DNA of 38,915 bases from Lachnospiraceae bacterium (GTDB taxonomy: Bacteria > Bacillota > Clostridia > Lachnospirales > Lachnospiraceae): the NCBI GenBank assembly GCA_017936785.1, contig JAGBEV010000024.1, forward strand, positions 1 to 38,915, written 5' to 3'. Positions 22,918-38,915 of this stretch are shown piece by piece. Position 1 is the stretch's first letter. Every line of letters begins with the position of its first letter. The notes beneath the pieces were generated by a model. That model had not been told where the DNA came from. It made no database searches and saw only the letters and a list, made by a program, of their open reading frames with translations. The position numbers and the translations under genes are program-made.

Positions 22918-24459
22918 ATGAGTCAGGAAATGGTCATCGTGCTGGACTTTGGAGGTCAGTATAATCAGTTAATCGCAAGACGTGTCAGAGAATGTAACGT
23001 TTACTGTGAGGTTCATCCTTACAATCTGAGTTTAGATAAAATCAAAGAAATGAATCCCAAAGGTATCATCTTTACGGGCGGTCCCAACAGCGTTTATGCA
23101 CCCGAATCCCCTATCTGTTCCAAAGAAATTTTTGAAATGGGCATTCCGATCCTGGGCATCTGCTACGGCTCCCAGCTTATGGCATATCTGCTTGGGGGAA
23201 AGGTAGCCACTGCCCCTGTCAGCGAATACGGCAAGACGGAAGTAACCATTGATACCACCAGAGAGATGTTTAAAAATGTAAATCAGAAAACCATCTGCTG
23301 GATGAGCCATACGGATTATATTGCTGAGGCTCCCGCTGATTTCACTGTTACGGCAATCACTCCGGTCTGCCCGGTTGCCGCTATGGAAAATAAAGAGAGA
23401 AAGCTTTATGCGGTGCAGTTCCATCCGGAGGTCATGCATACGGTGGAAGGCATGAAAATGCTCCAGAACTTTGTTATGGATGTGTGCGGATGCTCCGGCG
23501 ACTGGAAAATGGATTCCTTTGTGGAAAAGACCATTGAGGAGATTCGTGAAAAAGTTGGGAAGGGCAAGGTGCTCTGCGCACTGTCCGGCGGTGTGGATTC
23601 CTCCGTTGCCGCAGTCCTGCTTGCCAAAGCCGTAGGCAAACAGCTTACCTGTGTATTTGTAGATCACGGTCTGCTCCGCAAGAACGAAGGAGATGAGGTA
23701 GAGGCTGTATTCGGTCCTGAAGGACCTTATGACTTGAACTTTATCCGTGTAAACGCACAGGAAAGATTTTACAGTAAGTTAGCCGGAGTTACCGAGCCGG
23801 AAGCAAAGAGAAAGATCATCGGCGAAGAATTTATCCGTGTTTTTGAGGATGAGGCAAAGAAGATCGGAGCGGTGGATTTCCTGGTACAGGGGACGATTTA
23901 TCCAGATGTGATCGAAAGCGGTCTGGGCAAGAGCGCAACTATTAAATCTCACCATAATGTGGGTGGTCTGCCGGATTGTGTTGATTTTAAAGAGATCGTG
24001 GAGCCTTTGAGGCTTTTATTTAAAGATGAAGTAAGGAAAGCCGGAAGAGAGTTGGGAATACCGGAGTATCTGGTAAACCGTCAGCCGTTCCCGGGTCCGG
24101 GGCTTGGTATCCGTATCATCGGGGAAGTTACTGCTGAAAAGGTACGGATCGTGCAGGAGGCGGATTATATTTACCGGGAGGAGATCGCCAATGCGGGCGT
24201 GGATACCGGGCTGGGACAGTACTTTGCAGCGTTGACCAATATGAGAAGTGTTGGGGTTATGGGGGATGAGAGAACCTATGACTATGCGGTTGCGTTAAGG
24301 GCTGTTTGTACCAGCGATTTTATGACGGCGGATTGCGCGCAGATTCCCTGGGAAGTGCTGAGCAAGGTGGCGAATAGGATCGTTAATGAGGTTAAAGGGG
24401 TTAACAGGGTGCTGTATGATTGTACCAGTAAGCCGCCGGCGACGATTGAGTTTGAATAA
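22918..24459 (+). CDS. guaA: GMP synthase (glutamine-hydrolysing)
   Basis: This 513-aa enzyme converts XMP to GMP. The N-terminal class I amidotransferase domain has [15 protein letters not shown], the nucleophile Cys82 in [12 protein letters not shown] and the catalytic His-x-Glu in VQFHPEV. The ATP pyrophosphatase domain has P-loop SGGVDSS (223-229). The C-terminal dimer domain has [16 protein letters not shown] and ends in [17 protein letters not shown] precedes the ATG. It is the last core gene: base composition drops sharply just after its stop codon, and the 3' end of guaA is a known insertion site for genomic islands. Confidence 0.97.
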
Positions 24460-24487
24460 TGCGAGAGTGCATAATTTATTTTATATG

Positions 24488-24512
24488 GTAGGTAATCTAT
24501 AAGATTGCCTGC
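24488..24512 (+). terminator. Weak stem-loop after guaA
   Basis: GTAGGTAATC (24488-24497) pairs with GATTGCCTGC (24503-24512), including two G-U pairs, around loop TATAA. No good T-run follows, so termination would be weak. Confidence 0.4.
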
Positions 24513-24660
24513 TGTGTTTATACTTGCTTTTCTTATATTTCTTAACGTTGCCAATGTTAAATGTCAAACGAAGACGCTGATTGCGTTTCTGCTAATATTT
24601 ATTTTGGGTTTATTGAGTAAAAATTAATTTTGAAGTGGATAAAGATGTGGAGGTATTTAT

Positions 24661-25776
24661 ATGGAAAAATGTCCATTAGATGTAGTAGAAGATGAAATAT
24701 ATGCAAAGAGAAAAACTGTTAGATATGATATAAGAGATTTAACGGTTGAAGCAATTTCCCAAAAGTATGCGGATAGTTTGGGAGAAGACTATAAAGAAAT
24801 GAAAAATAAATATAATTACATTTATATACCTGAGTATCAGCGAGATTTTACATGGGATGAGGAGCGACAGTCAAAATTAATTGAATCTATTATATTGGGA
24901 TTGCCAATTCCGTTTATCTTTGTTGCAGAAAATAGAAATAGTTCTTGGGAAATAGTTGATGGATCGCAGAGAGTAAGAACTATACATTCTTTTTTAAATA
25001 ATAACCTTGTTTTGTGTAATTTATCTTCAATCAAATCGCTTAATGGATATAAATTTTCCGAACTTGATGAAACAAGACAAGGTAAAATTTTGAATACAGC
25101 ACTTCGTATTATCGTTTTATCGGAAGAGACAACTGATGATGTTAAGACTGATATGTTTGAACGTATTAATCGAGGAAGTGATTTGTTAAAGCCGATGGAG
25201 AAAAGAAAGGGAATATATCCAGGTAAATTTACGCAGTTTCTATATGATTATTGTGAGAAGAATGATTTGTTTAAAGAGTTGGCACAAATTGATAAATGGT
25301 TAATAAATAGACAGGAATATGAAGAACTTCTTTTGAGATTTTTTGCATTGACTGACACAGAGGTTTATAAGAAAGGGATTAATACAGGGATTGCTATATT
25401 TTTGGATTCGTATTTGGAGAAGAAGAATAATGAATGGCACATGCTTAATACACAGGAATTGCAAGAAGAAATAAAAAAATATACAGAAAGAATTGATTGT
25501 GTTTCAGAGTATGTAAAGAGTAATTTCCCATATGGCTTTAGACATAAAATAAATCCACAAACAAAACGTTCAGTTTTTGAGGCAATATCAGTTGGAGTAT
25601 GGCTTGCAATATCAGAAGAAAAAATTAAGAAAACTTTGGATAAAGAAGAGGTTAAGAATATATTAGATTCTGATGAGTTTAGAAAAAATACGCATGTGGC
25701 GAACCAATTGCATATGAAAGCAAAATTGTATGGAAGAATAAATACTATTTATGAAATGGTTATAGATAAAGGATGA
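24661..25776 (+). CDS. DUF262 domain protein (GmrSD/ParB-like N-terminal type)
   Basis: This 371-aa protein has a DUF262 domain at about 40-190: YIPEYQRDFTWDEERQSKLIESI, LGLPIPFIFVAE and the signature DGSQR (Asp100-Arg104, normally DGQQR), then FERINRGSDLL. DUF262 is ParB/sulfiredoxin-like and is the NTP-using half of GmrSD-type enzymes. The usual C-terminal DUF1524 HNH nuclease domain is missing: the remainder is helical. GTGGAGGT precedes the ATG. The HEPN protein follows after 4 bp. Together they resemble two-gene defence modules in which a DUF262 protein pairs with a separate nuclease; that role is inference. Confidence 0.85.
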   Translation: MEKCPLDVVEDEIYAKRKTVRYDIRDLTVEAISQKYADSLGEDYKEMKNKYNYIYIPEYQRDFTWDEERQSKLIESIILGLPIPFIFVAENRNSSWEIVDGSQRVRTIHSFLNNNLVLCNLSSIKSLNGYKFSELDETRQGKILNTALRIIVLSEETTDDVKTDMFERINRGSDLLKPMEKRKGIYPGKFTQFLYDYCEKNDLFKELAQIDKWLINRQEYEELLLRFFALTDTEVYKKGINTGIAIFLDSYLEKKNNEWHMLNTQELQEEIKKYTERIDCVSEYVKSNFPYGFRHKINPQTKRSVFEAISVGVWLAISEEKIKKTLDKEEVKNILDSDEFRKNTHVANQLHMKAKLYGRINTIYEMVIDKG

Positions 25777-25780
25777 CTGT

Positions 25781-26455
25781 ATGCGTAATGTAAAGAGAGA
25801 ACTTCTAATCAGAAAAGAAGAGACAAATAGTTTGATCTGTTTTGTTAAGTATTTAGAGGAAAATTTTTTACTAGAAACAGAAGTAGAATATAATGTTGTT
25901 ACGGTTAAGACTAGCATGAAAGCGAACATAATTTTAATGCTATATAATGCAGTAGAATCAACACTAACAAAAAGCCTTGAAAGAGTACACGAAAAAATAA
26001 AAGAAAAGAGGCTAAAGTATGGTGATTTATGTAGCGAAATAAAAAAAATTCTGGCAGTGTACTATGGATATTCTATGGAAAAATCAGTCAATGTTAGTGG
26101 TGCGATGGAGTATGTATTGCAATTGGCGGACTTTATTAATGGCAATGTTTGCTTCGATATTTCATATAAAGAATTAATTCAAAAGTATCCCATGTACAGT
26201 GGGAATCTTGATTCAAGAGAAATCGTAACAGTATTGAAAAGGTATGGTATTGTGTATGATGAGAAGTGTTCTGAATTAAAGACAATTAAAGATGATAGAA
26301 ATAAGTTGGCTCATGGCGAAGATTCTTTTGAGGAGATCGGAAGAAATTTATCAATTCCACAACTTGTAGAGATGGCAAATAGAACATTTGAGTACCTGGA
26401 GAAAATGGTAAAAGAGATAGAATGCTATCTGGATGAAGAAAAATACAGAGCATAG
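25781..26455 (+). CDS. HEPN nuclease-like protein (MAE_28990/MAE_18760 type)
   Basis: This 224-aa helical protein carries the HEPN RNase signature R-x4-H in DDRNKLAHGEDSF (Arg173, His178) near the C-terminus. The N-terminal part (MKANIILMLYNAVESTLTKSLERVHEKI) matches the layout of the MAE_28990/MAE_18760 HEPN-like group, which is commonly found next to DUF262 proteins. HEPN proteins of defence systems usually cut RNA and can stop growth on infection. It starts 4 bp after the DUF262 stop codon. The activity is inferred from the motif; pairing with DUF262 would provide sensing or control. Confidence 0.82.
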   Translation: MRNVKRELLIRKEETNSLICFVKYLEENFLLETEVEYNVVTVKTSMKANIILMLYNAVESTLTKSLERVHEKIKEKRLKYGDLCSEIKKILAVYYGYSMEKSVNVSGAMEYVLQLADFINGNVCFDISYKELIQKYPMYSGNLDSREIVTVLKRYGIVYDEKCSELKTIKDDRNKLAHGEDSFEEIGRNLSIPQLVEMANRTFEYLEKMVKEIECYLDEEKYRA

Positions 26456-26963: not shown

Positions 26964-27129
26964 CATTATAGGATTTTAATGTACAGGTTTTGGGATAGAA
27001 TATTGGAGCTGTATTTATAGAGAATATATTAACGAATGAACAAAGGATCAGAAACTTGGTTAAATTTGGAGAATTTCATTTTAAAGAATTAAAAACAGCA
27101 TTAGAAGGGAAATAGAAGGAGCCTTTATA

Positions 27130-27216
27130 ATGGGAGCATGTTGGTCAATACCAGTGGATGCAGAAAAGCCGAAAGATGAAAGAATAAAAAGCGGACGATA
27201 TGTTAAAGAACGTTAG
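27130..27216 (+). CDS. Possible 28-residue leader peptide
   Basis: An ATG at 27130 follows GAAGGAG at suitable spacing and opens 28 codons (MGACWSIPVDAEKPKDE...). The stop at 27214-27216 lies 15 bp before the ATG of the 899-aa gene. It could be a leader peptide coupled to the operon, a remnant of a truncated gene, or chance. The good ribosome site is the only real support. Confidence 0.35.
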   Translation: MGACWSIPVDAEKPKDERIKSGRYVKER

Positions 27217-27231
27217 AGATGAGGAATCGTT

Positions 27232-29931
27232 ATGGCGAGTCAAAAAGCTTGGGATAAAACTGAAGCAGCTATTTTACTTGAGGCATTAATCCAAGTCAAG
27301 GAAGGCGATGTTTCAAGAAAAGATGCAATTGAATCGGTATCTAAAAGACTTCGTGAAAAAGCACGATTAGAAGGTTTAGAGATTGATGATATCTTTCGTA
27401 ATGTTTCCGGTATAACATTTCAAATGCACAGTATGGAATCTGCGTATGTCGGCAAGACATTAATTAAACCTGCAACAAAACTTTTTTCCGAGATTGTTTT
27501 GCTGAGGAAAGAAGATCCTATAGAGTATTACAAATTGTTAAAAGGAAATCAATCAGTGATTGAACAACAAGGGATTATGGAAGATGAATTTTTTGAATGG
27601 TTATCAGGGAGAATATCTGCATCACAACAACTTGAATTGAAATCGGTATATGAGTTAATAAGTAACTTTTGCCTTGATAGAAAAATTATAAAACAACCTC
27701 TTTTAGAAACAACTGATTTAGGTCAACTCACAAAAGTACGAGATACAATTTCGCATAATCATCTATTTAAGTTTATGTATAAAAAGCAAATAGGGAAGAT
27801 GTCTGTGGGGATTAAGCACTATATAGATTATGTGAAGGAAACGGCTAGTAGAAAAGAAAATGAGCAAGATAGTAGTGTTTTTGATAACGTAGATACTCTT
27901 GATGTTCGGGAGGAATCTGTACGATTTGAAGAACTTCCTACAGAAGAAAGAAAGAATGCGTTTGTTAAATGGATGATGGAGCAAGATATGGCAGAAAGAA
28001 CAGCAATTTCGTATGCTTCATCATGCGGACTTGCAGCACAAATTGCTATAAATTATGGAATAATTGAGAAGGATATTTGGAAAATCACAGATATAGATAT
28101 TCTCAAGAATATGATTTTTGCGCTGTTGGATAATTCAGAATTCATTGAAAAGAATGAATCTAGACATAATCAATTTAGAGCATCATTAGTCAAGTATGTT
28201 CAGTTTTCAGGTGATGAGAATTTTGCTTTAGGAAGAAGTAGAAGAACTCAAAGCGATAAGAAATCTTCTGTTAAAAATCAGGAAGATGAAGCTTTTATGG
28301 AGTCATATCCTGAACTGTATATGAGGCTTCGCTCAATGTCAAAGGTATATGATGATCCGAGAGGACTTCATGTTGAACAGATAAGGGATATGCTTGGGAT
28401 TGAGATTGACATGGATGAGTTGAGGTTCATTCTTCAAGAAATTTCATGGATAACAGAAGTGGATGAAAATATATTCTCATTTTCAAAAAACGCAAGGTCT
28501 TATGAGAAGTTGATTGAGTTTGATCAAGAGGCATTTGTTCGTGTATTGATGAACCGATATCGTGGTGGAATGAGATTTGATTCAATAGATTTAGAGAATT
28601 TCCGAGATACATATTGGGATTTTGAAGATGAAAAAATCGATATGTCGGATGCTGATTTGGAAAAGTGTTTAAGAAAATGCGGTGTCATGTGGCAGGAACG
28701 CTTATTCCCAGCAGAAGCAATTATCGCAAATGATGTAAAGGAGAAATTATTAGCGTATATACAGTCAAGCTTTTGTGAAGGGAAACAGGTGTTGTATTAC
28801 AAAGCAATATTTAGTGATTTGTCTGATGTTTTTGAGTATTGTTTTAACCTCACAGATCCAATGATGCTGAAGCCTTATCTCGAATATGTATGTGAACCGG
28901 GTGAATATCATTTTTTTGATAAGTTTATTTCAAAAGAAAAAAATGTGAAGATAGACCACACTTCTGAGATAGAGGAGTTTCTTTTAGCGGCAGGGAAACC
29001 ATTATCATATGATGAAATTTTTGCAGGACTAGCTCATATTTCTAAGGAAATAATAAGCTCAGAAATCAGAACTAATGAAAACATTGTGATGAACTTTAGG
29101 GAGCATTATTTCCATTATGATTTGTTCGAATTCTCATCAGAGGATGCTGATCGTATCACTGAATATATCAATCAAGAAATTGATGAGGAAGGTTACTGTA
29201 TATGGTCAAGAGTTTTTGAAAGAGTGAAAGCAGAAATGCCGCTTTTTATTGAGAATAATTCATATCTTTCATCGTTGGGAATTAGAAATTCTATAGCAAA
29301 AAAACTTTCAGGGCGTTTTACTTTTGAAAGTGAAGTTATAGGCAAGCTTGGACAATCGATAAATATGGCTGCAGTATATAGTTTATACGGAAGGCATCAT
29401 GCTCCATTTAGTGATAATGATATTTATTTATTTTCAAAAGAGGTGAGCAGAGGGGCTACTTATTTTGATGCCCTAGCAGAGCACACAGTTCGTGTTAGTA
29501 AAGAATTGTTTGTTCCTAAAGAACAGATAGAGTTTGATGTAGCTGAAATTGATAAAGCTCTATCAACGTATTTATCTACGGGATATATGTTGATTAAGGA
29601 CGTTGATTCATTCTTAATGTTTCCAAATGTTGGATATGAATGGAATATATTTTTATTGGAAAGCTATTTGTTACACTATAGCAAGGAATATGCTCTTTGT
29701 AACAATGGACAATCATTGAATAATGTTTCAGGTGCACTTGTCAAAAAAGGTGGAAACTTTGATGAATTTGAAAGTGTATGTGCAGATGCTTTGGCGAAAG
29801 GTTATGTTGAACTAAACAAAAACGCAGCTCTGAATTACTTGGCTGAACAAAATTTACTTACACGAAGGAGTTATGCCGGAATAGAGACAACGATACAAAA
29901 AGCAAAACAAATACGAAACAAGAAGGGATAA
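27232..29931 (+). CDS. 899-aa helical/winged-helix protein leading the BREX-like operon
   Basis: Its function is not recognised. Residues about 1-105 form a module (AWDKTEAAILLEALIQVKEG, AIESVSKRLREKA, IFRNVSGITFQMHSME) that I associate with the N-termini of several clostridial defence proteins. Residues about 240-330 (NAFVKWMMEQDMAERTAISY ... NQFRASLVKYVQFSGD) resemble the core-binding SAM-like domain of phage integrases, without any catalytic domain. From about 375 on there are repeated winged-helix-like segments (GLHVEQIRDMLGIEIDMDEL; KPLSYDEIFAGLAHISKEII). No enzyme motif is visible. A GAGGAATCG precedes the ATG. brxP follows after 8 bp. A DNA-recognition or scaffold role is my inference. 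Confidence 0.8.
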   Translation: MASQKAWDKTEAAILLEALIQVKEGDVSRKDAIESVSKRLREKARLEGLEIDDIFRNVSGITFQMHSMESAYVGKTLIKPATKLFSEIVLLRKEDPIEYYKLLKGNQSVIEQQGIMEDEFFEWLSGRISASQQLELKSVYELISNFCLDRKIIKQPLLETTDLGQLTKVRDTISHNHLFKFMYKKQIGKMSVGIKHYIDYVKETASRKENEQDSSVFDNVDTLDVREESVRFEELPTEERKNAFVKWMMEQDMAERTAISYASSCGLAAQIAINYGIIEKDIWKITDIDILKNMIFALLDNSEFIEKNESRHNQFRASLVKYVQFSGDENFALGRSRRTQSDKKSSVKNQEDEAFMESYPELYMRLRSMSKVYDDPRGLHVEQIRDMLGIEIDMDELRFILQEISWITEVDENIFSFSKNARSYEKLIEFDQEAFVRVLMNRYRGGMRFDSIDLENFRDTYWDFEDEKIDMSDADLEKCLRKCGVMWQERLFPAEAIIANDVKEKLLAYIQSSFCEGKQVLYYKAIFSDLSDVFEYCFNLTDPMMLKPYLEYVCEPGEYHFFDKFISKEKNVKIDHTSEIEEFLLAAGKPLSYDEIFAGLAHISKEIISSEIRTNENIVMNFREHYFHYDLFEFSSEDADRITEYINQEIDEEGYCIWSRVFERVKAEMPLFIENNSYLSSLGIRNSIAKKLSGRFTFESEVIGKLGQSINMAAVYSLYGRHHAPFSDNDIYLFSKEVSRGATYFDALAEHTVRVSKELFVPKEQIEFDVAEIDKALSTYLSTGYMLIKDVDSFLMFPNVGYEWNIFLLESYLLHYSKEYALCNNGQSLNNVSGALVKKGGNFDEFESVCADALAKGYVELNKNAALNYLAEQNLLTRRSYAGIETTIQKAKQIRNKKG

Positions 29932-29939
29932 TGATTTAG

Positions 29940-32282
29940 ATGTATGCATACGAATGGGATTCGTCAACAGGAGGATATGTACTTACTCCTATGCCGTTGG
30001 CGTTTTCAAAAGAACCAAGACCAGTGTACTATAAAGAACTTGATATTTTAGGATTTGATAAGTACTGGGATTATGATAAAAATGATTCTTTTCCATATAT
30101 GTGGGCAGAAGCAAATAATTATATATATAGAGGAAGAGTTGTTGCGAAAATCAAAGGTGGATCATTATATACAGCACCAGAAATAATTTTAGTTGAAGAC
30201 CCAGAACCCGAGGGCTACCCACTGCGATTTGTTGATATTCCAGAGATGGTGAATAAAAATAGAGCCATAATGGAACAACTTACACAAGATACCATCAAAA
30301 AGATTTACAATATTTATACAGAGCATAAAAACAAAGTAGATGTATTTTATGTGGCTTTTTCGGGTGGAAAAGACAGCGTAGTTGTGTTGGATTTGGTACA
30401 AAAGGCACTCCCTCACAACGAATTTAAGGTTTTGTTTGGAGATACAGACATGGAGTTCCCAACAACGCTGAAATTGGTTGAAAAGGTATCTCAAGAATGT
30501 GCATTATATAATATAGAATTCTATTCTGCTAAGGCTCCTAAGTCTGCTGAAGAGACTTGGGATGCGTTTGGTCCACCGGCTAGAAAAGTGAGATGGTGTT
30601 GTACAGTGCATAAAACAGCTCCTGTAATAAACAAACTTAATGAGTTGTTTGACAAAAAATATGTTAGAACAATGATGATTACAGGCGTGAGAGGAGATGA
30701 AAGTTCAAGTAGATCAGAATATGACGAGCTAAGTAAAGGAAAGAAAATAGCTGGACAATATAGTTTCCATCCGATATTAGAATGGTCATCAGCAGAGATA
30801 TATCTATATATGTATGAAAATAATTTGGAATTTAATGAAGCATACAAATATGGATTTAATCGTGTTGGATGTATCATGTGTCCTAATTCTTCTGAAAAAC
30901 ATGAATATATGAAGAGAATGTTTTTCGAAGATGAAGTTATGAAATTTACACAAAAAATTATAGATAATAGTGCTAAGGATCTTTCGGGCGATAATGCAAA
31001 AAAATTCATGGATATCGGCGGATGGAAGACTCGACTTAGTGGTAGAGAATTGAAGTTTTCGGAAGATGAAAGATTTACTTTTGAAGAACATAAAGACAGA
31101 TTAGTATTCAAAGTTATTAAGCTAAATGACAAATGGAAAGAATGGTATAAAACAGTTGGACGTATTCAAGAAATAGATTCTGAAGAATTTATACTTGAGT
31201 ATAACGGTACAGAGCGTCGATGTAAAATATCATATGAAGATCAGTATGATGTTATTTCTGTTGAGAATTTTTCTAAAACAAAAAATGCAATAGAGTTTGT
31301 TTATTATTTTAAGAGTGTTTTAGCAAAATCACAATATTGTATACAATGTGGTACTTGTGAGGCTGAATGTCCGTATAGAAATATTGAGATGAAAAATGGG
31401 AAAATATCTATTTCAGATTCTTGCATAAAGTGTCATGAGTGCTTAAAGATATTATATGGATGTTTGTATTATAATTCAATTAGAGGGAGCAAGATCATGA
31501 AGAAGTTAACAGGAATAAATAAATACCTAAGTGTAGGTGTAGATGCGAATTGGATAGAGGAGTATGCAAAAGATAACTCTTTTGAGCCTGGTAACAGAAA
31601 AACAGATGTAATGTTTGGATTTTTGTCTGATGCTGAACTAGTCAAGAAAAAACAGATTACTTCTATAGGAAAGGTGGTATTTCGATATGAATTGGATGAT
31701 GTACTGCCATGGGCTATCATGCTTTGTAATTTAGCATATTCTTCTCAGTTTGGATGGTTTATTAAGAATATTCCTTTTTTCGATACAGTGACATTGGAGT
31801 CTGTCGAACTAAGATTAAAGCAGGAGGATGTTACAGATAAAGCAGTAGGAGAATTCTGGAATGGTTTTAAGGCGATTTTAGGCACAACAAAGCCATTAAA
31901 TGAAATAGGATTTGGAATTCCAGAAATTGAAGAGAAGGTCACAAAGACGGGAGACGTGAAGAAAAAAATGCTCTCGTTCTATCGTTTACCTTGGGAAAAT
32001 CCAGATGAAAGAGTAATTTTGTATTCTTTATATAAGTTTGCAGAGGAATGTGGTAATCGTAAACAGTTTGATCTTACAGAATTGATGGATGATTCAATTG
32101 AACGAGGCGGTGTAAGTCCTACACTAATATTTGGATTGGATAGAGACACAATGGAGAAGGTGCTGAATGGATTAACTTTTAATTATCCCGATTTGATTGA
32201 AGCAAGATTTACACATGGCCTTGATAATATTACCTTGAAGAGTGATATGAGTGCAGCAGAAATTTTTAATGAATTGTTTTAG
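29940..32282 (+). CDS. brxP: BrxP-like PAPS reductase/ferredoxin fusion
   Basis: This is a 780-aa multidomain protein. After a distinct N-terminal region (1-110), a PAPS reductase/DndC-like domain carries PP-loop SGGKDS (141-146), WCCTVHK (Cys220, Cys221) and GCIMCPNSS (Cys311, Cys314), suited to hold a 4Fe-4S cluster. A ferredoxin-like insert follows with CIQCGTCEAECP (Cys467, 470, 473, 477) and CIKCHEC plus Cys508. The C-terminal 260 residues resemble DUF4007. BREX type 4 is defined by such a PAPS reductase in place of the PglX methyltransferase. By analogy with DndC it may activate DNA or another target for sulfur transfer, which is unproven. Sulfate assimilation is unlikely given the neighbours. 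Confidence 0.85.
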   Translation: MYAYEWDSSTGGYVLTPMPLAFSKEPRPVYYKELDILGFDKYWDYDKNDSFPYMWAEANNYIYRGRVVAKIKGGSLYTAPEIILVEDPEPEGYPLRFVDIPEMVNKNRAIMEQLTQDTIKKIYNIYTEHKNKVDVFYVAFSGGKDSVVVLDLVQKALPHNEFKVLFGDTDMEFPTTLKLVEKVSQECALYNIEFYSAKAPKSAEETWDAFGPPARKVRWCCTVHKTAPVINKLNELFDKKYVRTMMITGVRGDESSSRSEYDELSKGKKIAGQYSFHPILEWSSAEIYLYMYENNLEFNEAYKYGFNRVGCIMCPNSSEKHEYMKRMFFEDEVMKFTQKIIDNSAKDLSGDNAKKFMDIGGWKTRLSGRELKFSEDERFTFEEHKDRLVFKVIKLNDKWKEWYKTVGRIQEIDSEEFILEYNGTERRCKISYEDQYDVISVENFSKTKNAIEFVYYFKSVLAKSQYCIQCGTCEAECPYRNIEMKNGKISISDSCIKCHECLKILYGCLYYNSIRGSKIMKKLTGINKYLSVGVDANWIEEYAKDNSFEPGNRKTDVMFGFLSDAELVKKKQITSIGKVVFRYELDDVLPWAIMLCNLAYSSQFGWFIKNIPFFDTVTLESVELRLKQEDVTDKAVGEFWNGFKAILGTTKPLNEIGFGIPEIEEKVTKTGDVKKKMLSFYRLPWENPDERVILYSLYKFAEECGNRKQFDLTELMDDSIERGGVSPTLIFGLDRDTMEKVLNGLTFNYPDLIEARFTHGLDNITLKSDMSAAEIFNELF

Positions 32283-32293
32283 GAGGACAAAAG

Positions 32294-35200
32294 ATGAGTT
32301 ATCGCGATTATTTTGATATTGATCCAGATTATTTTCCACAGGTGGACAAGAAGATTATTGATACAGTTCCTGATTTATGGAAGAAGTTTTATCCTCATCC
32401 TTCTTTTGTTAACCTCTTAAAGGCGACTACTGATGTTTTGAAAAGAAAATATAAGCTTTCTGTATGGGTAGATGGTGCGTATGGCACAGGAAAATCACAT
32501 GCAGTTCTTACTTTGAAGAAATTATTAGAGGCTTCTGAAGAGGAAACAAAGGCATATTTTGAAAAATATAACCTTGATAGTTTTCTGTGTAAAGATTTGA
32601 TGGCACAAAAAGAATCTGGGAAGATTCTTGTGTGTCATCGTTATGGTTCTTCTGATATTTCGAATGACACAGATTTGATTGTGGCTTTGCAAGAGGGCAT
32701 AGAAAAAGCATTAGCTGATAATGGAATTGAAAATCAGGCAAATATGTCGTTGAAGAATTCACTTATTCGTTATTTTGAAAATACTGAGAATAAGCAGAGT
32801 TTTGATATTTATGCAGGTGGAACCTATAAGGATAGGCTTGGAGGTGATATGGCCGAAAATATCATAGAGAAACTGAAGACATATGAGGATGATGCATTAC
32901 GAGAATTAATCACTAAGATATTTAAGGTTCCGGTTGTTCGAGGTAGCTTTTCCATGAATACTGGTGAAATGTGCGACTGGATTAGAGAAGTTATTGAGAA
33001 AAACAACTTATATAATCTTGTGTTCATTTGGGATGAATTTTCGGAGTATTTTGAAAATAATTTACATCATTTAACTGGTTTCCAACAGATTGCAGAACTT
33101 TCTGCAACTGCACCATTTTGCTTGATGATTGTAACTCATAAAGCAGAGGGTTATTTTTCAGATAGTGATCCGGATAAGAAGAAGATTATAGATCGTTTTG
33201 TTCCTCCTGTACATATCTCTTTACCGGAGAACATTGCATTTGCATTAATGCATGAAGCTATGAAGGTAACAGATGACGAAGCATTGGCTGAAAAGTGGGA
33301 GAAAAACAAGAAGAGCTTAAAAACAAGAACTAATAGCAGTAGAACTACGGTAAAGAATGCAATTAATTTATCAGATTCTGATTTATCGAACGTATTGCCC
33401 ATTCATCCATATGCTGCGTTGCTATTACAGCATATATCAATTTATTATACTTCAACTGCTAGAAGTATGTTTAATTTCATTAAAAATGATGAAGGTGATA
33501 ATGTAAAAGCATTTCAGTGGTTTATTGATAATTATGATTTTTCTTCACAGAATCCGTTTATTACGATAGATATGCTCTGGAGTTTCTTCTACGAAAATGG
33601 CCAGGATAAGCTTGCATCTGGCATAAAAGAAGTTCTTAGTTGCTATACAGCAAAGATGGACAGAGAGCTGATAGAGGATGAAAAGAGAGTATTGAAAACA
33701 ATTCTTTTACTTCAAGCCGTGTCAGATCGAATGAGTGGAAATAAAGATATTTTTCTTCCGAACGATAAGAACTTAACTATGGCTTTCGAAGGAACTGATA
33801 TTGAGTTGTCGGCAAGAAATATTGCAAAGAAATTATTGAATACTCATGTTGTTACAAGAACACCTCTCACAGGTGAAGTGTTCTCATATTGCTGTAAAAA
33901 TACGGGTGCAACAATAGATTCAACACCATTTATTAAAGACGCTCAGAATAAGTCAACGAAAGATTTGTCATTTATGACAGGATGTGAACTTCGTAACACA
34001 GTAGAGTTTAGTGGAGCTTTGAAAGCAAGATATAGTTTGGCATATGCCACGGTGACAGATTTCGATGGGGAAGTAAAAAAAGCCAATAATCCCGCTTCTG
34101 TAAGTAACAGATTGTATGCTATCGTGACTATTGCTCGAGATGATAATGAAAGAGCAACGTTACAGAAAAAAATAAAAGCTTTTTATGAGTCGGACACCAA
34201 TAGTGCTGTAGTGGTTATTGATGCATCAAATAATATATTGGGCGAGGCTAATTATAATGAATTTGTAGAAAACTATGCTATGGCACTTGCTATAGGAAAT
34301 AGTGATATCAATCAGAGAAAGACTTATGAAGGTTATGCGATTGATGTATTAAAGAACTGGGCAAAGAAGATTAAGGCTGGAGATTTCTATGTTTATTCAA
34401 AGTATGCAAAAGATGGTGACAGAGCCACTAATTATACAGATTTAACAGTGAAGCTGATGGAAATTAATAAATTCCATTATCCGGAATGTTTGGAGGTCGC
34501 ATTCCCGAATGTTCTCAATACTATGTATGATGCAAATTCGCTAGCTGCAGGAGCTACTTGTGGAATTACTGAAGAGACTAAGGGTACATTCCGTTCTGGT
34601 AATGAAGCAACAAAGCTTGAAAATGCATTAAAGGATGCATGGAAGATAGAGGATTACTGGAAGACTTCTCATTCTTATATTGCTAATTTGAAGAATGCGG
34701 TTGTAAAGATTATTGATGATGTATTTAAGGATCATGATAGAGTTTCTATTTCGCATATCTACAATATACTGAAGGCGGAACCGTATGGATTTATGCCTTG
34801 CAATTTGACTGCATTTATTCTTGGATTTGTTTTAAAAGAATATGCAAATACAGTCTATTCTTATAGTGATAACATGACTACTGATACGCTTGATACAGAT
34901 AAGCTTGCGACTATGATTTCTGAAGTTATTAAGCAAGAAAATACTCCTGATAAGCGTTACAAGGATAAATATATTGTTACTCTGACAGAAGCTGAGAGAG
35001 CTTTTAATAAGTCGACATCAGAAGCGTTCGGAATTGATCCAAAGTATTGTGTTTCTGTTACGGATACTAGATCGAGAATAAGAGAACAGATGAAGATATT
35101 TTCGTTCCCTATTTGGCTGATTGAATATGCAATTGATGATGTTAGTTTTAAGACAAGTAAAGACAAAGTTTGTGCGTTAATTGATAGCTATTGTTCACTT

Positions 35201-36478
35201 GCAAATAATCAGAATGATGGAAAGGGAAAATCAGATAGTGATATTGCCCTAGAAATTGGTGATATGTGCATCGCTGAAAAGGATATTGTGGAGGATTTGA
35301 AGTCAATACTCGTGAAAGATATTTGCAAAAAAGGTATGCAAAAATATCTGGAAATTTATGCAGGTGGAAAGCTTGTTTCAATCGCCAATGCAATTGGTGA
35401 CGGTGGACAGTACATCAATCATCTTGAATATAAGTTTAGCTCAGATGCAGCGAATTGGGTATGGAATAAGGATACTGTTCATAGCAAAATTGATGAATTG
35501 ATCATCGAATATGAGATTGTCGAATACAGCAATAAGGCCCTTGCAAAGCATGTTTCATACATTGAAACAATGAGAGCATGGTGCGATAGAATAGGACAGA
35601 TTAAATTAGCATATTCGGTAATTAAGAACAACATTGAAGAAGGAAAAGATTTTTTTGAAATGCTTCGTGATTTGAAAAAGGCGAATAGTCTTTTGGATTC
35701 ACAGAAAGCGAAATTCTTGGCTCTTTTGAAAGCTAATGTTGACAACTTCAGAACATTTATGTCATCACAGGCAGAGATGTTTATGAAGGCTTGTGCCCAT
35801 TATTTAGATGAACTTACATTGGATGATGTAAGGGCTATGCTAGAAGATGACCAGTATTCTTTCAAAGGTTCATATGTATCAGAACCGGACAAGTATATTG
35901 GAAAGGTTCAAAATGCTATTAGCGCTTATAAGGGAACGCTTGAAAATGTTAAGCTTCGTAAATTGTGGAAAGAATTAACGGGAACTGAAAAACCATTTGA
36001 TTGGTCGACTACATATTCTATGCCAATTATGGCAATGGTACCTGATTCTGACAGTGAAATTGCAAGAAAAGCATTTTCAACCATTAATACAGGAAAGAAT
36101 GATTCTAATGCAATAGCCAGTGCAAAAGATTATATTTCGAAAATAACCTATGTTGACAAACTTACAAGTAAAGAGGCAAGAGATAAAGCTTTTATTGATG
36201 CGTTCTTAAAGGATTATGAGGTTCTGTTTGAGGATGTTGATTCGGTAAAGGATTATTTGAAAGCACATATTACGGATCAACCATATTATTGGTTAGAAAA
36301 CAAAACTGTGACTTCGAAAATTCGTGAACTTGCAAGTGCTAAGTACATGGAGACTGGCTATTCAAAAGCTAAGAAAGTAATTGATGATATGTCGGCTGAA
36401 AAAGTAAAAGACTATTTGAAACAGCTGATAGAAGATAATGTACTGGTTGGTGTAGAAATCCTGAAGAGCAATAAGTGA
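32294..36478 (+). CDS. brxC: Large P-loop ATPase, BrxC/PglY-like
   Basis: This 1394-aa ATPase has a short N-terminal lead (MSYRDYFDIDPDYFPQVDKK), then Walker A GAYGTGKSH (61-69) and Walker B FIWDEF (Asp247, Glu248), followed by a sensor-like LMIVTHK and a VPPVHISLP segment. Most of the remaining protein is helical with no clear catalytic motif. The family of very large ATPases beside pglZ is a constant part of BREX systems. AGGAGG precedes the ATG, with 11 bp after brxP and 16 bp before pglZ. It probably forms a complex with the neighbouring proteins on DNA. Assignment to BrxC or PglY is by context and size. Confidence 0.83.
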   Translation: MSYRDYFDIDPDYFPQVDKKIIDTVPDLWKKFYPHPSFVNLLKATTDVLKRKYKLSVWVDGAYGTGKSHAVLTLKKLLEASEEETKAYFEKYNLDSFLCKDLMAQKESGKILVCHRYGSSDISNDTDLIVALQEGIEKALADNGIENQANMSLKNSLIRYFENTENKQSFDIYAGGTYKDRLGGDMAENIIEKLKTYEDDALRELITKIFKVPVVRGSFSMNTGEMCDWIREVIEKNNLYNLVFIWDEFSEYFENNLHHLTGFQQIAELSATAPFCLMIVTHKAEGYFSDSDPDKKKIIDRFVPPVHISLPENIAFALMHEAMKVTDDEALAEKWEKNKKSLKTRTNSSRTTVKNAINLSDSDLSNVLPIHPYAALLLQHISIYYTSTARSMFNFIKNDEGDNVKAFQWFIDNYDFSSQNPFITIDMLWSFFYENGQDKLASGIKEVLSCYTAKMDRELIEDEKRVLKTILLLQAVSDRMSGNKDIFLPNDKNLTMAFEGTDIELSARNIAKKLLNTHVVTRTPLTGEVFSYCCKNTGATIDSTPFIKDAQNKSTKDLSFMTGCELRNTVEFSGALKARYSLAYATVTDFDGEVKKANNPASVSNRLYAIVTIARDDNERATLQKKIKAFYESDTNSAVVVIDASNNILGEANYNEFVENYAMALAIGNSDINQRKTYEGYAIDVLKNWAKKIKAGDFYVYSKYAKDGDRATNYTDLTVKLMEINKFHYPECLEVAFPNVLNTMYDANSLAAGATCGITEETKGTFRSGNEATKLENALKDAWKIEDYWKTSHSYIANLKNAVVKIIDDVFKDHDRVSISHIYNILKAEPYGFMPCNLTAFILGFVLKEYANTVYSYSDNMTTDTLDTDKLATMISEVIKQENTPDKRYKDKYIVTLTEAERAFNKSTSEAFGIDPKYCVSVTDTRSRIREQMKIFSFPIWLIEYAIDDVSFKTSKDKVCALIDSYCSLANNQNDGKGKSDSDIALEIGDMCIAEKDIVEDLKSILVKDICKKGMQKYLEIYAGGKLVSIANAIGDGGQYINHLEYKFSSDAANWVWNKDTVHSKIDELIIEYEIVEYSNKALAKHVSYIETMRAWCDRIGQIKLAYSVIKNNIEEGKDFFEMLRDLKKANSLLDSQKAKFLALLKANVDNFRTFMSSQAEMFMKACAHYLDELTLDDVRAMLEDDQYSFKGSYVSEPDKYIGKVQNAISAYKGTLENVKLRKLWKELTGTEKPFDWSTTYSMPIMAMVPDSDSEIARKAFSTINTGKNDSNAIASAKDYISKITYVDKLTSKEARDKAFIDAFLKDYEVLFEDVDSVKDYLKAHITDQPYYWLENKTVTSKIRELASAKYMETGYSKAKKVIDDMSAEKVKDYLKQLIEDNVLVGVEILKSNK

Positions 36479-36494
36479 TTGTGAGGTGTAACTT

Positions 36495-38777
36495 ATGACG
36501 CTTGAAAAAATTGAAAAACACATTGAGATGTTTTTGGCATCAGATAAAAGATGGCCAATTATTGTTGATTTTTCAAACAAAGAAGACTTGAAAAATTTTG
36601 TTTATCATTTCTCTGTTGGATCTAATACTATTCTTTTCGCAGGTAATTTCTGCGGAAAGGATGGAACGATTAAGCTAGAAGAATTATTGAACCGAATAGA
36701 GAATAATACCGGCAACATATTTTTGACACATATATCTAGTTTTTTGAAATTATACGGCGAAAATGAAATTAAAAGACAGTTGAAGACGATTATTTCTAAG
36801 AGCATTAAGGGTCATGTTGTTATTGTTACATATCAATGCCGAAATTTCATAAGGTTTTCAGATAGTCGATTCAATGAAAGAGGTCAGATTTTGACTGTTG
36901 ACGGAGACTTCGATGAAATATCTAATATATGTCTGATTTCTCCTGATTTGGCTGCAGCGTTCAAGGGCTCATATAGTGGATTTGAAAAGACGGGAGAAGC
37001 TTTAGAAACATCTGTGGAAAAAACTATTTATATTGCAACAGATGTTAAGAAGCAAATGTTTAATATGTCCGTTATTAATATTTCTCAATTAAGCAATGGA
37101 TATGATATTTTGTGTTCAAAAGATTCTCGTATAAAGAATGTTCCGGAGAGCTTTGGTGAACCTGAACAGTGGAATAGATTACTCAAAGAGATGGGGGCAA
37201 ACAACATATCCTATGTTGTTGATCATGTATTTGGCAGCGAGGATAACTTAATTGAGTGTGTAAAGAAGTATCCAACATTCAATGATGAGAAGAAATGGAT
37301 ATTCTATATTTTATTATGCATATTAGGGACTAAAAAAAGTGCATATTTATCGCATGTATTGTTGATGACATCAAATTATCAGGATATTCCAAAGGCAATC
37401 TATCGAGGGATTTTGTCATTGGATAAAGATGATGCAGATTTTGAAAAAATATATAACAAGAGAAAGGAGTTCTTGACTGGTTATGTGGATTATCTAGATG
37501 AGGCTGTTGATTATTGTAAGATTGTGTCCACAAAACAAGCAGATTCTATTTATTTCTTGACGGATGTTACTCAGCCGGAAAGAGAAAAGATAATTGAATG
37601 GCTCGGTGTATATGGAAGTAAGTATGATTCGACTCAGCTGATTCAAATTCTCGGAAAAATATATCCTGATTTGGCAGCCTATTTGTCAAACTATAGATTT
37701 AAGAAAGAGTTTTTGAACACCTATTTTGAAAAATACAAGTATCAAAAGGTAATAAATAAGGTGCTTCCTACTTTTGAAACGGTGGTAGAAGATCAAGCTA
37801 TAAAACTTGATTTTGTTAGCCTGTTACCTGCAAGAACAAATGTATTTGATAAGATTGATCTCGTAGGTGCTAGAGTATTTTTCTTTGATTCTTTGGGTGT
37901 TGAATATCTTGGATATATACAGAGCAAATGTAATGAATATGGTTTGTCGGCAAATATAACATGTACTCGCAGCGAACTTCCGACCTTGACATGCTTTAAT
38001 AGAGAATTTGTGGATGTCTGTACTTCGAAAGGGTGCAAGGTTACAGATATTAAGGATCTTGATGAGATTAAGCATCATGGTGAGGATAGTTTTGATTATG
38101 AAAAACCAAAAACTCCTATATATCTCATAAAGGAACTTGAGATTATTGATAATGCATTAAAGGTTATCAGAGGTGAAATATTAAGCAGTCAGTATACTAA
38201 AGCAGTCATTGTTTCGGATCATGGTGCAAGCCGTTTGGCAGTTCTACACGAGACTGAAAATCTGTGGCAGATGGAAACAAAAGGAATGCACTCAGGTCGA
38301 TGCTGTCCAAAGAATGAAATAAACGAAAAACCATCTTTTGCAATTGAGGCAAATGATTACTGGGTGCTTGCCAATTATGATAGATTTAAGGGAAGCAGAA
38401 AAGCTAATGTTGAGGTTCATGGTGGTGCGACAATAGAGGAGGTTACGGTTCCTATCATTGAGATAACGAGAAAAGTGGATGGTATTGAAGCTTGGATTCT
38501 TGATGAATATAAGGTAATAACTCTTGGGGCTATGGAGGTGCCGACAATAAAGTTTTATGTCGGTGTTGTTAGTAACAATATCTCAATAAAGGTTGAAGAA
38601 AAATATTATGATGCCCATAGCACACCAGAGAAATACATTTATTCAGCGAAACTGGATGATTGTGTGAAGAAAGGTACATATATTGCGGAAATAATATACG
38701 GTTCAGAGACGTTATCATCTGGAAACACATTTGAGATTAAAAAGAAAGGTATGACAGAAGTAAGTTTATTTGACTAA
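36495..38777 (+). CDS. pglZ: PglZ-like protein, alkaline phosphatase superfamily (BREX type 4)
   Basis: This is a 760-aa protein. The N-terminal half (1-440) is mostly helical. The C-terminal half has PglZ-domain metal-site motifs in order: FFFDSLGVEYLGYI (Asp465), VSDHGASRLAVL (Asp575, His576) and VHGGATIEEVTVPIIEI (His642). A small beta domain closes the protein (KFYVGVVSNNISIKVEEKYY). PglZ is the hallmark of BREX defence, and this form, beside brxP and a large ATPase, fits type 4. GAGGTG precedes the ATG. It is the last gene of the tight operon visible here. Whether it is a phosphatase or a nuclease is not settled by sequence. Confidence 0.87.
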   Translation: MTLEKIEKHIEMFLASDKRWPIIVDFSNKEDLKNFVYHFSVGSNTILFAGNFCGKDGTIKLEELLNRIENNTGNIFLTHISSFLKLYGENEIKRQLKTIISKSIKGHVVIVTYQCRNFIRFSDSRFNERGQILTVDGDFDEISNICLISPDLAAAFKGSYSGFEKTGEALETSVEKTIYIATDVKKQMFNMSVINISQLSNGYDILCSKDSRIKNVPESFGEPEQWNRLLKEMGANNISYVVDHVFGSEDNLIECVKKYPTFNDEKKWIFYILLCILGTKKSAYLSHVLLMTSNYQDIPKAIYRGILSLDKDDADFEKIYNKRKEFLTGYVDYLDEAVDYCKIVSTKQADSIYFLTDVTQPEREKIIEWLGVYGSKYDSTQLIQILGKIYPDLAAYLSNYRFKKEFLNTYFEKYKYQKVINKVLPTFETVVEDQAIKLDFVSLLPARTNVFDKIDLVGARVFFFDSLGVEYLGYIQSKCNEYGLSANITCTRSELPTLTCFNREFVDVCTSKGCKVTDIKDLDEIKHHGEDSFDYEKPKTPIYLIKELEIIDNALKVIRGEILSSQYTKAVIVSDHGASRLAVLHETENLWQMETKGMHSGRCCPKNEINEKPSFAIEANDYWVLANYDRFKGSRKANVEVHGGATIEEVTVPIIEITRKVDGIEAWILDEYKVITLGAMEVPTIKFYVGVVSNNISIKVEEKYYDAHSTPEKYIYSAKLDDCVKKGTYIAEIIYGSETLSSGNTFEIKKKGMTEVSLFD

Positions 38778-38820
38778 TGGAGCATTCCTGTAATTCAGAA
38801 ATAATGCCAATTGAATAAAA

Positions 38821-38895
38821 AGAAACCTCTGATGTATGATTAGAGTGTTCATCTTGGCGGATGAAACAAAAACACTTAAATCAACGGAGGTTTCT
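38821..38895 (+). promoter_or_regulatory. Leader hairpin that buries the next ribosome site
   Basis: AGAAACCTC (38821-38829) pairs perfectly with GAGGTTTCT (38887-38895), covering most of the GGAGG ribosome site at 38886-38890. Inside are AGTGTT/AACACT (38844-38849, 38871-38876) and TTCATC/GATGAA (38849-38854, 38860-38865), which partly compete. The start codon follows 4 nt later. This could be a translation-control leader, or the left end of an insertion sequence. Confidence 0.6.
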
Positions 38896-38898
38896 AAA

Positions 38899-38915
38899 AT
38901 GAATTTAACACAGAA
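38899..38915 (+). CDS. Start of a further gene, cut by the window end
   Basis: An ATG at 38899 follows GGAGG with 8-nt spacing and reads MNLTQ before the window ends. In BREX type 4 the gene brxL would be expected here, but the 121-bp gap and hairpin leader differ from the 8-16 bp gaps inside the operon, so a separate unit such as a transposase gene is equally possible. Confidence 0.5.

Follow-up and report, generated by a model that had tools for sequence, protein, structure and literature searches.

A modular protein with predicted DNA-binding folds encoded first in a BREX type 4 operon of a Lachnospiraceae bacterium

The operon and its first gene

The window analyzed in this study is a complete contig of 38915 bases from a gut bacterium, Lachnospiraceae bacterium (GenBank assembly GCA_017936785.1, contig JAGBEV010000024.1). 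It carries a bacteriophage exclusion (BREX) type 4 operon, a phage defense of the sulfur-marking kind, with a large additional gene in first place. Four open reading frames (ORFs) occupy 27232-38777, all on the + strand, with intergenic gaps of 8, 11, and 16 bp. The first, here called the leader (27232..29931), encodes 899 amino acids (aa) and is followed by brxP (29940..32282; 780 aa), the brxC/pglY ATPase gene (32294..36478; 1394 aa), and a pglZ of the type 4 family (36495..38777; 760 aa). BrxP matches PDLC02510 (1.5e-219) and combines a 3′-phosphoadenosine 5′-phosphosulfate (PAPS) reductase domain (PF01507, 1.5e-35), a ferredoxin-like 4Fe-4S region (PF13237, 8.3e-06), and a C-terminal region in which SspB (DUF4007-like) matches aa 669-760 only weakly (E 0.0025), the DUF4007 part being implied by the full-length BrxP profile match. 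PDLC02485 covers aa 3-1393 of BrxC (5.4e-214), and PglZ scores 445.9 bits with NF033445 (BREX_PglZ_4), a profile whose cut-off is 140. No methyltransferase was found among the four operon genes, and a profile search gave no Pbe match among the four proteins, the genes here being those for BrxP, BrxC, and PglZ. By its PglZ, BrxP, and BrxC profiles this locus is a member of the BREX type 4 family, of which the present copy is incomplete.

The original prediction, made from the DNA letters, had described these four genes, gaps, and products as a BREX type 4 operon with a first gene outside the type 4 core set; ORFs and profiles agree with this description, including the PglZ match on which it depended. 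The type 4 gene set is given as brxPCZL (PMC11931770; PMC12707154) or as a PAPS reductase, DUF4007, BrxC, PglZ, BrxL, and a cysteine desulfurase (PMC12839542), and in the available text of these papers the leader is neither part of the former set nor named in the latter. The window operon is like BREX type 4 in the order of its genes for BrxP, BrxC, and PglZ, the last being of type 4; the relatives L005 (Lachnospiraceae bacterium IMSAGC_012) and G367 add brxL. It is unlike BREX type 4 in its extra first gene and in that no brxL turned up in this copy.

The leader is a single-copy gene in its own genome. An all-helical N-domain (27232..27561, +; aa 1-110) is followed by a degenerate SAM-like (integrase) domain (27565..27885, +; aa 112-218; SAM profile 4.9e-05 on aa 116-203), a second SAM-like domain of integrase, core-binding-like type (27916..28227, +; aa 229-332), and a C-module (28486..29928, +; aa 419-899), an array of approximately six winged-helix domains that is the conserved part of the family. 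Neither PADLOC nor NCBIfam gave the protein a match at E ≤ 1; its single Pfam match, PF13102 (phage integrase SAM-like; E = 0.04), is below the cut-off, which the same profile passes in the homologue of L108. Pfam gave no match to a tyrosine-recombinase catalytic domain after the SAM-like part, where the predicted model has winged helices, and no kinase, nuclease, or iSTAND domain was found in the leader with Pfam, NCBIfam, or PADLOC. From these profiles and models the leader looks like a non-catalytic protein of DNA-binding folds.

In leader relatives, the conserved winged-helix array follows at most one N-domain and at most three SAM-like domains, either of which may be missing, and the complete BREX-4 leaders of these surveys range from 535 to 1449 aa. 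In some homologues the C-terminal domain of the RNA polymerase alpha subunit (alpha-CTD) and/or sigma region 4 precedes the same C-module. N-domain matches interrupted by stop codons lie within or shortly 5′ of leaders that have no N-domain (G148:C22, 103557-103883; G223:C60, 132165-132311), which suggests that the front module was lost recently. A 238-aa ORF that matches the N-domain and lies between a sigma region 4 leader and brxP (G568:C43; L084, 6162-6878) presents the N-domain as a separate BREX-4 gene. By a motif, the N-domain may resemble the N-terminal head of a ScoMcrA-type modified-DNA endonuclease, but a PDB profile search listed no such entry.

Occurrence and co-inheritance of the leader

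Our surveys covered genomes of the window's family and phylum as well as viral, phage, and plasmid records. Among 397 family genomes, the leader gave 16 matches, 11 of which are the next large ORF 5′ of brxP on the same strand (G000, G050, G148, G173, G223, G255, G256, G295, G329, G367, and G371), usually separated from it by no more than some tens of bases and at most by ~255 bp (G329). Three matches run off contig ends and are uninformative (G071, G161, G252), and two are located in other defense loci, one with PDC-M33A/B/C and a type II restriction-modification (RM) pair (G082) and one with PbeA/PbeC (G290). The gene directly after the leader is brxP in all seven viral contigs found via the leader (L103, L104, L105, L106, L107, L110, L112; brxP itself is interrupted in L110) and in the one phage record found (MT835511, L108), and no leader match was obtained from the plasmid records. 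A C-module profile identified 11 places in 10 of 396 phylum genomes, comprising seven BREX-4 loci, one contig end (G658), two positions before PbeA (G714, G568:C6), and one isolated weak match (G399). The frequent linkage to brxP that the original prediction had proposed as a check was thus observed, and its view that the leader is tied to BREX stands in so far as the homologues are mostly beside brxP; outside BREX-4, the C-module is also present at three Pbe loci, in a candidate system, and in a gene standing by itself.

Searches starting from BrxP yielded 14 matches at 1e-100 in the sample of 397 family genomes, 11 of them with a leader and one (G137) of Ssp-like appearance. Across the phylum, 34 of 398 genomes match at 1e-60, with 16 strong loci below 1e-200. 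A leader is present at eight of these 16 (G000, G407, G439, G555, G568:C43, G672, G702, G729), and three others begin with a complete sigma70 gene (G607), a brxP fragment with a sigma region 1.1 remnant (G631), or an unclassified 463-aa ORF (G446). Five of the 19 weaker phylum genomes were fetched. In G678 a sigma70 gene precedes brxP, which is split, and the other four look Ssp-like by gene order. A methanogen plasmid carries BREX-4 without a leader. Ssp systems with a long SspD are similar to the operon in their PAPS reductase, DUF4007-sized protein, and SspC-sized ATPase, and the Ssp-like loci L096, L098-L100, and L209, assigned by gene order and size, lack a leader belonging to this family. 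In BREX-4 loci of two genomes, the gene directly 5′ of brxP is a complete sigma70-family gene with regions 1.1 to 4 (L088, 12127-13608, -; L097, 4978-6423, +). Viral contigs L113 and L115-L119 encode proteins of 525-578 aa resembling the N-terminal two thirds of BrxP, as fragments in L119 and as a tandem pair in L115/L116, with no BrxC or PglZ on the stretch examined.

A BrxC tree built from 30 loci groups the 18 leaders that have the standard C-module into a single clade (100/99). Its neighbors are the two sigma region 4 leaders and the long-branched L092, and the opposite side holds five leaderless loci, L088 with its sigma70 gene in front, and the three loci whose leaders are diverged (L044, L046, L107). 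The number of leader loci in this tree is biased by some having been found through the leader. Over the 17 loci that have all four genes, distances correlate at 0.92 for leader-BrxC, 0.90 for leader-PglZ, and 0.80 for leader-BrxP, compared with 0.94 for BrxC-PglZ and 0.87 for BrxP-BrxC. In a separate computation of such correlations, 999 permutations never gave a value as high as one observed. L031 and L093, which nearly duplicate L005 and L036, respectively, were excluded from tree and correlations, and loci without a sufficiently long copy of a gene were excluded from the correlations for that gene. The leader co-diverges with BrxC and PglZ, with BrxC nearly as tightly as the core genes do among themselves. 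Clade and co-divergence favor the subtype with an extra first component suggested by the original prediction, but the leader is not universal, and since diverged leaders occur elsewhere on the tree, the leader does not define a single subtype. On this comparative evidence many BREX-4 operons, though not all, contain the leader as a component that recurs and is inherited together with the core, and the leader probably has a genuine function in the operon.

The C-module also connects the leader with Pbe (CxC ABC ATPase-DndE) systems. Directly before PbeA, three loci encode a large protein that shares the C-module (L045, 9043-11829, -; L234, 5532-9002; L236, 6639-10046, -); its front is sigma region 4, with or without alpha-CTD, in place of the N-domain and SAM-like domains. 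These loci are unlike the window operon in having PbeA/PbeC in place of BrxC/PglZ. L045 has a PAPS-reductase-like protein. The available text of PMC10853773 and PMC6459918 gives no such large protein among the Pbe components. Of 299 family genomes, 10 contain the N-domain: it lies within a BREX-4 leader or immediately 5′ of one in six (G000, G148 with an internal stop, G173, G223 as a remnant, G255, G256), at contig ends in two (G071, G252), and as a stand-alone protein in two, near DndC, DndD/PbeC, and DpdF/DpdH-like genes in G253 and near PbeA/PbeC in G110. The small stand-alone N-domain homologues are located at 8468-8803 of L220, in a Dnd/Dpd-like cluster, and at 7918-8286 of L221, in a Pbe cluster.

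Exchange of brxP and the ends of the operon

Protein identity between the window and L005 is 88% for the leader and 88% for PglZ but 54% for BrxP, and BrxC is 91% identical to the G367 copy. Blastn against L005 matches 27067-30847 and 31998-38782 with nothing between, which places the exchanged part of brxP at 30848..31997 (+); at the protein level this part spans roughly aa 61-720. Against G367, a single 57-base piece matches inside the otherwise unmatched part, and in a global alignment identity drops from ~90% to 70-78% across it. Fourfold degenerate sites are 65-80% identical to L005 in the leader (192/239), BrxC, and PglZ. In BrxP, aa 1-60 are nearly unchanged (59/60 residues, 17/21 fourfold sites), fourfold sites are 30-42% identical over aa 61-720 (18 to 33 sites per block), and aa 181-720 are 41-50% identical with fourfold sites at 33-42%. 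Between-system comparisons give fourfold identities of 34% and 42%, equally low. The low values over aa 61-720 point to replacement of the brxP allele by recombination in an otherwise ~90% identical operon, rather than to selection on a shared allele. Locus L033 is 71% identical to the window in BrxC and 54% in BrxP, its BrxP being nearer to those of L112 (61%) and L035 (58%). The exchange, which resembles specificity switching, is not general, as most other pairs with BrxC identity of at least 50% have BrxP conserved equally or more.

The alignment to L005 breaks off in the window just past the pglZ stop codon. At this point, where brxL begins immediately 3′ of pglZ in L005 (brxL is likewise present after pglZ in G367), the window contains the end of a multi-copy IS110-like insertion sequence (IS) element (38778..38915, +), inside which the contig stops. 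These last 138 bases of the contig are repeated at three other sites in the same genome, one beside a 445-aa transposase ORF; judged from the transposase sequence and not from a profile, the element is putatively of IS110 type. BrxL was not found in the source assembly by protein search or PF13337, the same search having found brxL in 4/4 relatives. With an IS end after pglZ and brxL not found in the assembly, this operon copy appears truncated or rearranged, and the system in the source genome is probably impaired. BrxL is present in 436/457 BREX type 4 taxa according to the available text of PMC12839542, which also reports a cysteine desulfurase as the sixth component; in agreement with the latter, a cysteine-desulfurase-type class V aminotransferase gene is located 3′ of brxL in seven loci (G367, L044, L093, L108, L110, L112, L114).

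At the other end, homology to L005/L006 extends upstream of the leader over 27067..27231 (+), forming the left edge of the conserved unit just 5′ of the leader start codon. The 5′ neighbors at 22918-26455 are guaA, then genes for a GmrSD_N protein and a MAE_28990-type HEPN protein, and these guaA-adjacent genes possibly represent a defense island.

Candidate roles of the leader

We interpret the leader as a DNA reader or adaptor of a BREX type 4 (phosphorothioate, PT) operon, in which it is an extra, co-inherited first gene, and assign this interpretation a probability of roughly 0.45. The winged-helix array would hold DNA and/or the common machinery as a common platform, and the exchangeable front would serve as a sensor reading a DNA feature, either the PT state or a feature of the invader, through which the leader may direct or license the restriction step. 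The choice of the sequence to be thiolated would fall to BrxP and not to the leader, which would work with either BrxP allele. The sequence comparison suggests this division, because BrxP was exchanged alone and the leader was not. BrxA, DUF4007, and SspB are like the leader in their multi-helix-turn-helix, non-catalytic DNA-binding role, but the leader is separate, larger, and without a profile match, and a DUF4007-like part is expected in BrxP. PglW of BREX type 2 also has an alpha-CTD-like domain followed by winged helices (available text of PMC12839542), and its profile touches the L045 leader (E 2.3e-07), but the leader has none of the catalytic or iSTAND domains sought, and the likeness falls short of demonstrated homology.

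Several observations weigh against a PT-reading leader. Family BREX-4 loci contain the leader in 11 of 13 cases, with none recognized in G184 and G249, nor in five of the 16 strong phylum loci (G568:C30, G606, G645, G693, G701). The BREX-4 operons in which the profiles used recognize no leader include L081, L082, L089, L091, L207, L208, and L109, which indicates that the core is able to do without it. One C-module protein occurs with a PDC-M33 system and type II RM pair (L041), and one weak match is isolated (L235). The Pbe loci L045, L234, and L236 were found through the C-module itself; L221, a Pbe locus found via the N-domain, has PbeA/PbeC and no C-module gene before PbeA on the fetched stretch. 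A DndC query identified nothing DndC-like in L234 or L236, and Pbe systems also occur without a DndD-centered system (available text of PMC10853773), so that the Pbe loci do not prove a PT link. Neither the N-domain nor the C-module has a sequence or fold match to a known PT reader. Foldseek returned no match at E ≤ 0.001 for either leader model, and with pTM values (predicted template modeling scores) of 0.42 and 0.36 the models do not fix the domain arrangement.

An unlikely but still serious alternative is that the leader regulates transcription of the operon or of phage genes, standing first so as to be made first. Sigma70 region 4 and alpha-CTD occur in several leader relatives, and the complete sigma70-family genes of L088 and L097 take the same place before brxP. 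At 535 to 1449 aa, however, the leader would be very large for a regulator, and its N-domain occurs alone within Dnd/Pbe clusters. The usually tight spacing to brxP (8 bp here; up to ~255 bp in L035) suggests, without showing, cotranscription, and L088, the sole sigma-led locus in the BrxC tree, is on the opposite side from the standard leaders. We find it harder to credit that the leader is a target-recognition subunit that, like HsdS of type I RM systems, chooses the thiolated sequence. Several domains of DNA-binding fold with exchangeable front modules would suit such a subunit, but the leader is 88% identical between the window and L005 while BrxP was the gene exchanged, and BREX-4 without a recognized leader exists. 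Auxiliary genes are common around BREX (available text of PMC12839542), as a backup effector or an accessory gene merely carried with the island would be; we consider this improbable for the leader, given its co-divergence with BrxC near core-gene tightness, its constant first position, and the lack of any nuclease-like domain among those found. Similarly poor odds attach to the broader proposal of an undescribed defense-reader family common to BREX-4 and Pbe and built from transcription parts, in which alpha-CTD, sigma region 4, or a whole sigma70 in the leader's place might mean that the defense detects or exploits promoters or phage DNA under transcription, a transcription-linked self/non-self discrimination in PT systems. 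An ordinary BREX type 4 operon beside a mis-called or chance ORF can be set aside, as nothing was found in its favor and the 899-aa frame has an 88% identical relative with 192/239 fourfold sites and belongs to a family conserved in the same place.

As a candidate DNA reader, with its DNA-binding folds, exchangeable fronts, and a C-module shared with Pbe loci, the leader offers a concrete candidate for self/non-self discrimination in methyltransferase-free, PT-based BREX. The exchange of brxP in an otherwise constant operon makes control of the thiolated motif by BrxP testable, and the annotation gene set brxPCZL would need one further gene for leader-bearing operons.
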